In this document: positions 17,337-22,900 of the stretch, in pieces | Numbering within the stretch: position 1 is the first letter of the stretch | Layout of the letters: every line of letters starts with the position of its first letter | Assembly: GCA_021816725.1 (NCBI GenBank) | Contig: JAKAXD010000002.1 | Location: 1 to 64,000 of the forward strand | DNA length: 64,000 nt | Origin: Thermoplasmata archaeon | GTDB taxonomy: Archaea > Thermoplasmatota > Thermoplasmata > Thermoplasmatales > GCA-001856825 | Direction of reading: 5' to 3' | The notes under the pieces: model-generated | Told to the model about the DNA's origin: nothing | Seen by the model: the letters and a program-made list of their open reading frames with translations, nothing else | Database searches by the model: none | Made by a program: the position numbers and the translations under genes

Positions 17337-18560
17337 ATGAAAAAAATAGTAATAATTGGAGGTGGGTTTGCGGGCCTTAGGGCTCTTTACAGGCTCATAA
17401 AAACCCTCGGGAATATGGTGAATGTAACACTCCTCGACCGGTCAGAATTCAGTATAGAAAAACCTTCATTGCCTGAGGTTGCCTTTGCAGGAAAGGAACC
17501 TTCAAAGGTCAGGATTCCGTTGAAACAGACAGTGGAAAGTAAGGGCGCGAGATTTGTAAAGGATAATGCGACGAAAATTAATCCAGTGAATAAAGTTGTC
17601 ATGACAGATGGTGGAGCTAAAATCGACTATGATATCCTTCTTATTGCCACAGGCGCAGTGAAAGATTATGATTCCATTACAGGGTTCAGTGATTATGGCT
17701 TTTCTATCTGCGACGATTTTCAAGCTGAACGTCTTGCGAAGCGATTGGAAAGCTTCGAGGGGGGTAAGATTGTTATAGGATCAGCCCGGACGGAGTGGGA
17801 CCAAAATAGTACAAGCATCAAGCTGGACGCCCCATGCGAAGGTCCAATTGGTGAGGTTATGTTCATGATTGATACATATCTAAGTGAGAGAGGAATCAAG
17901 GAAAAATCAACCATCACGGTATTCACACCTGGGGCAGTATTCTTTGACGATGTAGGTGAAAGCATCCATGCGGAGCTAGGCCCATTCATTAGGGAACACA
18001 AAATTTCGGTTCTCACAAATAAGATCATCACAGCAATTGATGATCACGCTGTTCTCTTTAGAGACGGTACCGATCTTGAAAGCGATTTGACCATAATCAT
18101 TCCCCCTTACAGGGGACCTGATGTTATCTCCCTCTCGCGGCTCGGGGACAGCCGTGGCTTTATAAGAACAGATGATGAGATGCGGCACACAGAGTATGGG
18201 GACATTTTTGTAATTGGGGACGTTAACGCGGGATCAATGCCAAAACTGGGACACATAGCCATAATGCAAGCTGACGTCGCAGTGGCAGCAATAATAAAGG
18301 AAATAACGGGGCAGGGCGAAGTACCAAAACCCCGACCTGAGATATTTTGCATAATGAACAGAGGAAGGGACGGAGCAACTGTTATACTTTCAGATACACT
18401 GTTTGGGGGGAGTCGTGACATTGCATATAGCGGAAGATTGGCACCTACCTTTAAGTGGGGATTTGATTCATATTATTTTTACACACATGGACACATGCCC
18501 CCGGAAATTTTTCAGGAGCCTGTCGAGTGGCTTGTGAAGTTACTGAAAACAAATGAATGA
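17337..18560 (+). CDS. FAD/NAD(P)-dependent oxidoreductase, sulfide:quinone oxidoreductase-like
   Basis: 407 aa; IVIIGGGFAGLRALYRL, LLIATGAVKDYD, GDIFVIGDVNA; two candidate SQR Cys contexts (LDAPCEGPIGEVMF; PEIFCIMNRGRDG) and C-terminal YYFYTHGHMPP. Confidence 0.82.
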   Translation: MKKIVIIGGGFAGLRALYRLIKTLGNMVNVTLLDRSEFSIEKPSLPEVAFAGKEPSKVRIPLKQTVESKGARFVKDNATKINPVNKVVMTDGGAKIDYDILLIATGAVKDYDSITGFSDYGFSICDDFQAERLAKRLESFEGGKIVIGSARTEWDQNSTSIKLDAPCEGPIGEVMFMIDTYLSERGIKEKSTITVFTPGAVFFDDVGESIHAELGPFIREHKISVLTNKIITAIDDHAVLFRDGTDLESDLTIIIPPYRGPDVISLSRLGDSRGFIRTDDEMRHTEYGDIFVIGDVNAGSMPKLGHIAIMQADVAVAAIIKEITGQGEVPKPRPEIFCIMNRGRDGATVILSDTLFGGSRDIAYSGRLAPTFKWGFDSYYFYTHGHMPPEIFQEPVEWLVKLLKTNE

Positions 18561-18781: not shown

Positions 18782-19230
18782 ATGCTTCATAACAAAATGG
18801 AATCGCTCCTCCTAATTATCCTGAAGATCGCTTGTGGCAAAGCAGACGGAGGGCGGATTGCGATGATAGGCATAGGCGAATCAGAGGTGTCAGGGCAGAA
18901 CGGGGTGGAGAATGCAGTGCAGGAAGCGATATCTCAGCCCCTGATAGACGCCGACATATCAGATGCGAAGGGAGTGCTAGTGCGTGTTGTTGGTGATGAG
19001 ACCATGACAGTCTCCGAAGTTGAAGCCGCAGTGAGCCTGGTGCATGAAAGGGTGAATCAGAACGCAAGGATAATATAGGGAGCTTCAGTGGATGAGTCGA
19101 TGAAAGGGTCGATAAAGGTGCTTGTTGTCCTGACGGGCGTTGAGTCTCCGTACATGTTTGATTCAACTGGAAGCTTCTCCATAGCGACGAAAACTGCAGT
19201 GCTGAAAGGACTTGACTGGGGTCGGCAAAG
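18782..19230 (+). pseudogene. ftsZ: ftsZ remnant: N-terminally truncated, interrupted by an in-frame TAG
   Basis: Same-frame segments ADGGRIAMIGIGESEVSGQNGVENAVQEAISQPLIDADISDAKGVLVRVVG...VHERVNQNARII-[TAG 19076-19078]-GASVDESMKGSIKVLVVLTGVESPYM; FtsZ C-terminal domain without the GTPase half. Confidence 0.85.
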
Positions 19231-19469: not shown

Positions 19470-20132
19470 TTATTGTACAATCAAAGGGCGGAAATTCTCA
19501 AGTGACCTTCCAAATTCTGATAAAGAGAATTTGTATGTATGGTGTCCAGTTGTACCATCCACTCTATCAACTATTTCCATTGAAATCAAAATTTTCAATC
19601 GCCTGGATACAGTGGATTTATCAATCCCGTTTGAAGCAGCTAATTGCCTTATCGTGTTCGTTCCACTAGATATATCCTTTATCAGATTAAAATAGACTGG
19701 GTCAAAAATATCCATTTTCTGTACTTTTTTAGGAGAGACCACAATTGTCCGGTCAGTCTCCCTTTCATAAATAACCATGGAGATGTTACGTTCTACAGCA
19801 TATATGGCCAAAGCAGCCATTCCAATGCCAGACCCGCACGAGATATTTACCCAGGAAGGAAACCCCCTTTTGGCACATATAGATTTGACGGCAAATAAAA
19901 TCTGAAAAAAATTAGTGATATCGTTTACGTAAATCAGGTCGATTTTAGTATTTACCAAATCAAGAAATTCCCTAATTTTAATTTCCACTTGATCATAGCC
20001 AGAATTCTTATTTAGAATGAGAACAAGTCTGCCCACCTTTGGAACATCCGAAAGAAACGGCTTTATTACATAATCTTCATCTCTGTTGAATATGGTAATT
20101 GCATAAGTGTTTTCCACAATTATTAATGTCAT
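19470..20132 (-). CDS. CARF-like domain plus winged-helix HTH transcriptional regulator (Csa3/DUF6293-like)
   Basis: 220 aa; Rossmann-like N-terminus with WVNISCGSGIGMAALAIYAVERNISMVIYE, C-terminal HTH TIRQLAASNGIDKSTVSRRLKILISMEIVDRV. Confidence 0.75.
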   Translation of the reverse strand: MTLIIVENTYAITIFNRDEDYVIKPFLSDVPKVGRLVLILNKNSGYDQVEIKIREFLDLVNTKIDLIYVNDITNFFQILFAVKSICAKRGFPSWVNISCGSGIGMAALAIYAVERNISMVIYERETDRTIVVSPKKVQKMDIFDPVYFNLIKDISSGTNTIRQLAASNGIDKSTVSRRLKILISMEIVDRVDGTTGHHTYKFSLSEFGRSLENFRPLIVQ

Positions 20133-20293
20133 TTAATATATAATATTTATCTTATTGTTCAATTAGGTCGGTATTTAGATTGCGCAATTTAGTTATTTTC
20201 CTGCAACAATGCATAATTTTTATCTATTCCTGCATCTAAAAATAAATAGTTTTTTGTTATCTCGAAAGATGCGAATCTTGGTGATAAGTACTC

Positions 20294-21691
20294 ATGTCTG
20301 AATCTATTCATGAAGTTGATAAAGAGGATAAAAATTTCAAAAGGGATAAATCGATCTTTTGGAAATCGGTATATGCTCTTCTAATTCTAGCCGTCTCACT
20401 GTTCATAGGGGGGATAGTGATGCAATACGTTTTCCATCAAACCAAGGCACCTTTGCTTCTGGGTTTGATCGTAGCGCTGCCACTTGCCATTCCACTTGAA
20501 CTCTGGAATTTCACTGATCCTGATACTCTATTCAGAGTCATGGCTTTTCAGGACAGGTTTTTGATGGTATGTTTTGGATTTGCTATTGGTGTCGGAGCAA
20601 TACTGCTATATGCCGTTGCATTAATTACTCACCCCAACTTTGGAATAAAAGACTTCTTCGTTCCTGGAATAGTTGTAGGTGGTATAATATTTGGTGCAGG
20701 AGTCGGGCTTGCTGGATACTTCCCGGGAACCATATGGATAGCGCTAGGGACGGGAAGGAGAGATGCAATATTCGCGGCGCTAGGAGGACTACTAGGTGCA
20801 TTTTCCTGGTCCGTGATATTCGGAGGAGTAAGGGGATTTTTCTGGAATACGCTCAATTTCGGTCCAATAACATGGGCCTCAATATTCGGCATAAAGGCCA
20901 AGATCGATGTCTTCTTTGTGAGCCTGATCTTTGGTGTCATTCTTATTGCCGTATTTCTGTTGCTTCCTAGGTATCCTGGAACAAAGGTAAAAAATTCCTG
21001 CGGATACCATATGACTGGAAAATCTGAAAAGACAATAACTTTTGATGCAGTAATAAAGGAGGATTTTGAAAAATATCCAAAGGTCAATAAGTATCTCACA
21101 AGGTTGATTAATGAAAGCAGCGTAGAAAATGCAAGAATGACAATACCTTTGGGCCTGGCATTTACCATAACGGCAGTAGCGGTCATAATACTCCATCAGA
21201 TATTTGGGGAATCAACAACATTCTCCTGGATAGGAGCACAACTTTCATATCTGGTGAGCCCTACCTGGGCTGCTTCCAACCCTTATTTCCAGCTATTCGG
21301 GGGTATGCACATCATCAACGGTTTACCAGTGAACAATCCGTTCAGTGAGATAGGATGGGAGCCTTTCACAGACCTGAGTTCTCTGTTGGGTGGCCTCATT
21401 TCTTCGGTTCTTATATCTAGAAGATTCATGGGTTTCAAGAAACAGGTGCCAAATGCGTGGACTCATAGCCACAATCCGAGATACAGACCTATCGGCTCAT
21501 TCGCCGGGGCATTCATGGTATTGTTCGGTGCGAGAATGGCTAATGGATGTGCGTCAGGGCACATACTGAGCGGTGACATACAGATGGCAATTTCCAGCTT
21601 CGTATTCATGATGTTCGTCCTAATCAGCGCCTGGATCATGCTCAGGTTCTTCTACCACATGAAAATAAATGCGTGGGGATATACTAAATGA
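20294..21691 (+). CDS. YeeE/YedE family sulfur-compound transporter
   Basis: 465 aa multi-TM; GAGVGLAGYFPGTIWIALGTGRRDAIFAALGGLLGAF and FGARMANGCASGHILSGDIQMAISSFVF (YeeE GCxSGH motif). Confidence 0.9.
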   Translation: MSESIHEVDKEDKNFKRDKSIFWKSVYALLILAVSLFIGGIVMQYVFHQTKAPLLLGLIVALPLAIPLELWNFTDPDTLFRVMAFQDRFLMVCFGFAIGVGAILLYAVALITHPNFGIKDFFVPGIVVGGIIFGAGVGLAGYFPGTIWIALGTGRRDAIFAALGGLLGAFSWSVIFGGVRGFFWNTLNFGPITWASIFGIKAKIDVFFVSLIFGVILIAVFLLLPRYPGTKVKNSCGYHMTGKSEKTITFDAVIKEDFEKYPKVNKYLTRLINESSVENARMTIPLGLAFTITAVAVIILHQIFGESTTFSWIGAQLSYLVSPTWAASNPYFQLFGGMHIINGLPVNNPFSEIGWEPFTDLSSLLGGLISSVLISRRFMGFKKQVPNAWTHSHNPRYRPIGSFAGAFMVLFGARMANGCASGHILSGDIQMAISSFVFMMFVLISAWIMLRFFYHMKINAWGYTK

Positions 21692-21752
21692 TGGTGACAA
21701 AGTTGAAAGAACTAAAGTCCATCCATCGCAATGAGCCTCGCTTGGAGGTTAA

Positions 21753-22106
21753 TTGATCATGGCAAAAATTCTGGTGCTGTTAATAACAGGGAAGGACAAC
21801 ATAAACACGGAAATGGTATCATTCAATTTTGCGGCAAATGCAGTAAAAAATGCAAAAGCCGACGTAGAGTTCCTCTTTCTGGGAAGGGGCGTCCAGGCTG
21901 CGGATAACAAGCAGAAAAGTTCACCGCAGTTTGAGGAGCAGGTTGATGAACTGTTGAAGTTAGGGATAAAGGTAAAGATATGCAAGGTAAGCATGGCAGG
22001 AGAGGGGATAACTGAATCGGATATATTCCCGGGCATAGAGATGGTTCTGGGAGGAGTTGAAGTAAACAGTAAAATAGAGAGCGGATATGCAATAGTAACG
22101 TTCTGA
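21753..22106 (+). CDS. DsrE-family protein
   Basis: 117 aa; ILVLLITGKDN...VEFLFLGRGVQ...ELLKLGIKVKICKVSMAGEGITESDIFPGIEMV. Confidence 0.82.
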   Translation: MIMAKILVLLITGKDNINTEMVSFNFAANAVKNAKADVEFLFLGRGVQAADNKQKSSPQFEEQVDELLKLGIKVKICKVSMAGEGITESDIFPGIEMVLGGVEVNSKIESGYAIVTF

Positions 22107-22111
22107 TTTAG

Positions 22112-22900
22112 ATGTTCGGAATCACAGATCTGCAAATAGTACTGTCTATAATTTCGGGATTACTCGTAGGCTTTAGTCTAGGTCTTATAGGCGGAGGGGG
22201 ATCTATACTCGCAATTCCTCTGCTTATCTATTTTGTCGGATACGATCATCCACATCTTGTGATAGGCACGACAGCTCTTGCTGTGGGCATAAATGCGTAC
22301 CTAAACCTCATACCGCATACCTTAAAGAAGAACGTGAACTATAAAACTGGAACATTATTCACAATTCCTGGGGTTGCCGGCGTTCTTGCTGGTTCTGAAC
22401 TTGGACTTCTCACTCCTGGAACGTTCCTGCTCTTCTTTTTCGGTTTCCTCATGATTGGCATAGCGTTATATATGCTACAGAGAAAGTGCGTTGATACGTC
22501 AGAGAAGGAACGCAAGGTATCTAAATCGTACGGAATACTTGTGCTCACTGGCGTTGCGGTTGGGTTCGCTTCGGGATACTTCGGAATAGGGGGCGGATTC
22601 CTAATAGTTCCCGGCCTTCTCTTTGGCGGAGGCCTGAACATTATTCAGGCAGTAGGCACTTCCCTTATGTCCGTCGGTACGTTCGGGATCGTTACAGCTG
22701 CTAGATATGCGATAAATGGCGATGTCAACATAATCATATCGGCTTTGTTCATCATAGGGGGAGTTTTAGGAGGGTGGGTGGGCGCCAGGTACGCAAGCCG
22801 AGTACCAAAGCGCAGGTTGACACAGATATTTGCGATAATAGTGATAGTCGTCGCAATATACATAATATACCAGAACTTCGGAGTAGTCCTTCACCTATAA
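22112..22900 (+). CDS. TauE/SafE family sulfite/anion exporter
   Basis: 262 aa; GFSLGLIGGGGSILAIPLL and GFASGYFGIGGGFLIVPGLLFGGG paired motifs, GGWVGARYASRVPKRRL. Confidence 0.92.
   Translation: MFGITDLQIVLSIISGLLVGFSLGLIGGGGSILAIPLLIYFVGYDHPHLVIGTTALAVGINAYLNLIPHTLKKNVNYKTGTLFTIPGVAGVLAGSELGLLTPGTFLLFFFGFLMIGIALYMLQRKCVDTSEKERKVSKSYGILVLTGVAVGFASGYFGIGGGFLIVPGLLFGGGLNIIQAVGTSLMSVGTFGIVTAARYAINGDVNIIISALFIIGGVLGGWVGARYASRVPKRRLTQIFAIIVIVVAIYIIYQNFGVVLHL

Follow-up and report, generated by a model that had tools for sequence, protein, structure and literature searches.

The window analysed here is a stretch of 64 kb (G000:C20:1-64000) from a Thermoplasmatales genome, G000, which amounts to 1.31 Mb and is 79% complete. 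On the reverse strand, positions 19470-20132 encode a regulator of 220 aa, composed of a CARF domain (approximately residues 10-138) and a winged helix-turn-helix (wHTH) domain (approximately residues 142-213); this assignment comes from PADLOC Csa3 and HTH profile matches, a Foldseek match to Csa3 and conservation next to YeeE. Across a common divergent promoter region of 161 bp (20133-20293), the forward strand carries genes for a YeeE/YedE-family transporter of 465 aa (20294-21691; PF04143, E=5e-19), a DsrE-family sulfur carrier (21759-22106; PF02635, E=2e-11; one invariant Cys) and a TauE/SafE-family exporter of 262 aa (22112-22900; PF01925, E=6e-51), each scoring above its Pfam cut-off. 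The promoter region contains two predicted operators set 29 bp apart, TGCGCAATTTAGTTATTTTCCTGCA (20181-20205; one mismatch to the TGCA-N17/18-TGCA dyad described below) and TGCATAATTTTTATCTATTCCTGCA (20210-20234; exact dyad). The latter ends 6 bp upstream of AATAAATA (20241-20248, forward strand), a putative yeeE TATA element guessed from the consensus. A preliminary description of this DNA had placed a CARF-like regulator divergently from YeeE-DsrE-TauE across 161 bp, with no CRISPR in view; all of these parts were found at the positions given above, and the window is free of CRISPR-like arrays. A search for viral contigs found none.

With its CARF and wHTH domains, the 220-aa protein is a close relative of Csa3. 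Among PADLOC profiles, it matched Csa3 with E=5e-14, followed by CARF3 (2.5e-10) and CasR (3e-7), and MarR/ArsR-type HTH matches at residues 142-213 account for the winged helix that a Csa3 should have. Sequence and profile searches of solved structures returned matches to the HTH only, with none to the CARF part. An AlphaFold model, built from two sequences with no templates and hence to be read at low confidence (pLDDT 45), shows strands and helices in CARF order and then the HTH helices. When this model was compared with the PDB by Foldseek, the best two matches were Csa3 structures, one with cA4 (6wxq, E=0.0018) and 2wte (E=0.0021), while ring nucleases and Can2 came lower in the list. A wrong model would be unlikely to choose Csa3 first. 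The Csa3-like CARF fold with a C-terminal winged helix proposed in the preliminary description is borne out. In other respects the protein departs from Csa3: its TIGR01884 cas_HTH score of 23.9 bits lies below the cut-off of 60.2, and both the cas linkage and the ligand motifs are missing.

As for the partners, YeeE scored 69.4 bits against PF04143 (Sulf_transp; cut-off 27). Its Cys93, Cys236 and Cys419 were invariant in 19 aligned sequences, these being putative counterparts of C22, C91 and C293 of StYeeE. Against the TsuA equivalog NF052577, it reached 46.2 bits, far from the cut-off of 400 bits. DsrE scored 44.4 bits against PF02635 (cut-off 22.7), with one Cys invariant in 14 sequences.

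A profile search of 117 genomes of the order yielded 22 CARF loci, of which 21 were complete, with scores above 200 bits, and one was broken; the neighbourhoods of all 22 were inspected. A YeeE operon adjoins 16 of them, the window included (G000, G222, G318, G317, G096, G128, G335, G261, G075, G103, G089, G082, G237:C10, G346, G347 and G324). In 15 of these 16 loci the CARF gene is divergent from yeeE, with a common promoter; in G096 an ATPase gene lies between them. The usual operon order is yeeE, in some loci a small membrane protein gene, dsrE and tauE, and some loci are incomplete. In the other six CARF loci, the divergent gene is cas6, which belongs to a complete type I-D set (cas6-cas10d-cas7d-cas5d-cas3d-cas4) in four cases and stands alone within the stretch inspected in G024 and G339. 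The type I-D cas operons with a divergent CARF-wHTH gene (L105, L106, L032 and L035) carry, in some of their CARF promoters, dyads of variable spacing. G237 has both kinds, one YeeE-linked and one Cas-linked CARF. Overall, we conclude that CARF-YeeE-DsrE-TauE is a real, conserved module: with a CARF gene at YeeE in 16 genomes, the neighbourhood extends well beyond the genome of the window.

The nearest named relative is Thermoplasmatales archaeon I-plasma, whose CARF protein is 91% identical and whose neighbourhood is alike; a degenerate-pattern search for close relatives retrieved this organism only. Samples of the class (400 genomes) and of the phylum (390 genomes) provided one strong relative, from G070, plus a few remote ones, and the G070 gene is not located at YeeE; it is divergent from ftsZ. 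As far as we searched, the CARF-YeeE neighbourhood is confined to the order Thermoplasmatales. Many YeeE genes of the order have no CARF gene, so the transporter can do without the regulator. Next to such a CARF-less yeeE, three genomes encode a protein of about 190 aa (L107:9993-10583, L108:6549-7121 and L109:7852-8439) with no informative Pfam match, which could be a replacement regulator. In G324, a DDE transposase gene (L103:379-1893) splits the CARF gene and leaves the yeeE operon intact, a natural knockout of the regulator.

Some further features of the surroundings deserve a comment. Upstream of the CARF gene, in both the window and I-plasma, there is a gene for an SQR-like flavoprotein (17337-18560 in the window) related to the selenoprotein type III subtype, and a distant relative of it is found downstream of yeeE in G075 (L025:10942-12108). 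Between the SQR-like gene and the CARF gene of the window lies a remnant of an FtsZ C-terminal domain (18782-19078, with similarity to 19201); in a sister genome (L023) the gap, of about 300 bp, is too short for it. The ftsZ gene divergent from the G070 CARF homolog is full-length (L034:7859-9061). The occurrence of ftsZ sequences beside both CARF genes is probably a coincidence.

When remote outgroups and G162, with its long branch, were left out of the tree, all 15 intact YeeE-linked CARFs stood together on one side of a branch with a support of 99/97. The same split between YeeE-linked proteins and the rest appeared when remote outgroups were included, with a support of 59/3, probably so weak because of long branches. 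The YeeE partners fall into two very deeply separated subfamilies, only about 40% identical, and the partner subfamily changes twice on the CARF tree, with the linkage spanning CARFs down to about 29% identity. Such a topology means that the CARF-YeeE linkage has been kept, or remade, with different transporters, and association with two YeeE subfamilies favours a functional tie rather than a chance one. Whether or not a CARF gene is present, yeeE of the second subfamily is immediately followed by the gene of a small membrane protein of about 80-120 aa (L026:11065-11424, L028:6721-7083, L031:10700-10960 and L101:2344-2583) with no Pfam match over the cut-off. A co-option of the CARF regulator, as put forward in the preliminary description, fits this picture. 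The CARF tree has no sound root, and we consider it likely, no more, that the YeeE-linked regulator descends from a Cas-linked one.

The divergent promoters share a dyad, TGCA-N17/18-TGCA, which is present in 9 of 13 non-redundant cases (0.08 expected); in 1000 shuffles, at most two promoters carried it. No other 4-mer dyad, at any gap from 2 to 30, scored as high (38.9, as compared to a best of 11.9 in 200 shuffles); a general gapped-word search gave nothing above shuffles. Upstream of 12 YeeE genes with no CARF partner, stretches of 265 bp contain no exact dyad, so that, counting all YeeE-linked loci, 10/16 contrast with 0/12 (Fisher p=9e-4, relatedness not corrected). Five YeeE-linked genomes lack the exact form: G318, G261, G089 and G075 show a single mismatch, and G103 has no dyad. 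In G096, where the ATPase gene separates the two genes, two perfect dyads 30 bp apart lie just upstream of yeeE, and the CARF promoter has none. Presence with CARF and absence from CARF-less YeeE genes indicate that the dyad goes with the CARF gene. Of the remaining CARF promoters, six are non-redundant (that of G070 and five Cas-linked ones), and three of these also have an exact dyad (0.27 expected), which is suggestive, no more, of a tie between dyad and family, a family that seems to keep its DNA preference. A search of the window's own genome with the subclade pattern, allowing up to three mismatches, recovered only the two sites of the window, and a reversed control recovered none; the regulon is therefore probably local. 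Binding of the divergent promoter by the regulator, which the preliminary description called for, has indirect support in this conserved dyad, which follows the CARF-YeeE pair.

In archaea, a site upstream of the TATA element suits activation, or blocking of TFB when it is very close. Taking TATA elements and start sites as guesses, the dyads in other YeeE-linked promoters are, as in the window, upstream of the best-placed candidate for the yeeE TATA, and for this reason activation of yeeE appears the likelier direction of control. One subclade presents an additional arrangement: in G089, G261, G075, G335 and G128, an A+T core some 25 bp before the CARF start, the place of the TATA element in a leaderless gene, falls within a dyad that is exact in G335 and has one mismatch in the other four. 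Such a position would suit self-repression of a leaderless CARF gene.

To what signal might the regulator respond? Csa3 binds cA4 via motif 1 (hydrophobic-G-F-N/D) and motif 2 (G-hydrophobic-R) (PMC8844856). With these motifs mapped onto the family by pattern, the Gly-Phe of motif 1 is absent from all 15 intact YeeE-linked CARFs, which have N, D or E together with other residues instead (F-N-R-D in the window regulator); it is kept in five of the six Cas-linked sisters, G339 having Gly-Tyr. Motif 2 of the window regulator reads N-I-S-C-G-S-G, including G100-S101-G102. Its Arg position is Gly in 15/15 YeeE-linked and 5/6 Cas-linked proteins and Ser in one Cas-linked protein, and a loss seen in both groups is either older than the YeeE/Cas split or shared. 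Moreover, type III Cas10 occurs in only one of the 16 YeeE-linked genomes (G075), and Cas1 was found neither in G000 (79% complete) nor in G096 (96% complete). It might be supposed that the regulator still answers a virus-induced cyclic oligoadenylate, shifting sulfur transport in an antiviral or dormancy response, given that its fold is nearest to the cA4-binding Csa3, that Cas-linked sisters exist in the order and that one genome has both kinds. However, the loss of the cA4 motif residues, combined with the rarity of Cas10, makes a cyclic oligoadenylate signal unlikely, and we see very little chance for this scenario; the nucleotide-type ligand of the preliminary description is not supported. 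As a ligand, the adenine nucleotide adenylyl sulfate (APS or PAPS), which belongs to sulfur assimilation, would link the nucleotide-binding fold to the sulfur operon, and ATP sulfurylase is present in 11 of the 16 YeeE-linked genomes. Nevertheless, a search of G075, G082, G103 and G089, each about 99% complete, revealed no such enzyme, because of which APS is unlikely as a general ligand; motif 1 has also lost its adenine-stacking Phe, and we give such a pocket only the faintest credence.

A more serious competitor, which we still hold to be unlikely, is cysteine chemistry as in SoxR/SqrR: sulfane sulfur delivered by YeeE/DsrE would modify Cys86, and Cys99 in most members, thereby altering DNA binding, with little or no role for a ligand in the pocket. 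Cys86 is invariant in 15/15 intact YeeE-linked CARFs and absent from 6/6 Cas-linked ones, an invariance that keeps sulfane-sulfur sensing conceivable; Cys99, in the pocket loop, is found in 11 of the 15. A precedent exists in Hyphomicrobium, where the YeeE-like SoxT signals to the repressor SoxR (PMC11582611). On the other hand, Cys99 is replaced by Ser in four members, so that no pair is conserved, the two cysteines would be at opposite ends of strand 4 according to the low-confidence model, and the CARF of G070, not at YeeE, has Cys86 too. Finally, chance or inertia might have left a CARF gene with no role for the operon beside dyads belonging to another factor, a reading to which the origin of all genomes from a single order lends something. 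We find this most improbable: the linkage is kept across both YeeE subfamilies and across highly divergent CARFs, CARF-less YeeE promoters lack the dyad, some Cas-linked CARF promoters have it, and in G096 it stayed at yeeE after the genes had parted.

Altogether, we favour, with a probability of roughly 85%, a scenario in which the CARF-wHTH regulator controls yeeE-dsrE-tauE from TGCA-N17/18-TGCA dyads, its ligand probably being a sulfur-status signal and not a cyclic oligoadenylate. The transcription factor, probably a homodimer, would bind one or two dyads in the common divergent promoter and, once bound, would control the operon; in some relatives, the CARF gene is probably repressed by its own product. 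Thiosulfate or sulfane sulfur would enter via the three-cysteine path of YeeE, with DsrE as the sulfur carrier, and sulfite or a similar anion would leave through TauE. The rebuilt CARF pocket would probably read a small intracellular signal of sulfur status. The sequences themselves establish the protein family, the linkage, the common dyad, the dyad at yeeE where CARF is displaced, the lost cA4 residues and the lack of a type III source; DNA binding, direction of control, ligand and transported species we infer. Of the inference in the preliminary description, the sulfur part, a CARF-wHTH regulator dedicated to YeeE-DsrE-TauE, is well supported, and the nucleotide part is not. A bolder version, to which we give slightly better than even odds, is that a CRISPR-type CARF factor was permanently redeployed as a ligand-responsive switch of a sulfur operon, with a pocket rebuilt for a sulfur-status metabolite that no CARF is known to bind, and that the defence and sulfur versions can coexist in one genome, as in G237.

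CARF domains, known chiefly for sensing the cyclic oligonucleotides of antiviral defence, seem here to have a second, metabolic job. The YeeE-linked clade, whose target is fixed and lies outside CRISPR and whose pocket is rebuilt, allows one to address directly which other ligands CARF domains bind, and how defence and metabolic switches arise from one another. For the acid-loving Thermoplasmatales, it also yields a candidate sulfur regulator together with its predicted DNA sites. In the literature that we searched, CARF combined with YeeE was not found, and a mention in the 2020 survey of the CARF superfamily is possible.

Several known systems can be set beside the locus. With Csa3 (Saccharolobus solfataricus, PDB 2wte, 6wxq, 6w11; Sulfolobus Csa3a and Csa3b), its best structural match by the low-confidence model, the window regulator shares a CARF domain, a C-terminal wHTH and a length of about 210-220 aa; unlike Csa3, it is linked to yeeE and not to cas, and it stays below the TIGR01884 cut-off. 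The type I-D-linked sisters (G237:C9, G162, G330 and G345) share its family, the divergent geometry and, in part of their promoters, similar dyads; however, by position they control the cas6-to-cas4 operon, they keep the motif 1 Gly-Phe and they lack Cys86. A precedent for CARF-wHTH roles beyond CRISPR is HFX_2341 of Haloferax mediterranei, an archaeal regulator resembling Csa3a, with homologs in species devoid of CRISPR (PMC11434293); that account gives it no link to a sulfur operon, unlike the window regulator, which shows only a weak Pfam match in its direction (PF19810, E=0.0025, below the cut-off). The SoxR/sHdrR and SoxT systems of Hyphomicrobium (PMC11582611) likewise encode a regulator together with a YeeE-like transporter for sulfur sensing, but SoxR and sHdrR are of the ArsR type with no CARF domain, and sulfane-sulfur sensing by SoxR relies on a pair of cysteines, whereas only Cys86 is invariant in the YeeE-linked CARFs. 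Lastly, YeeE-YeeD (TsuA-TsuB) thiosulfate uptake (PMC11073785) has in common with our locus the YeeE family and three conserved cysteines; here, the operon partner is DsrE instead of a TusA-like YeeD, and YeeE falls below the NCBIfam TsuA cut-offs.
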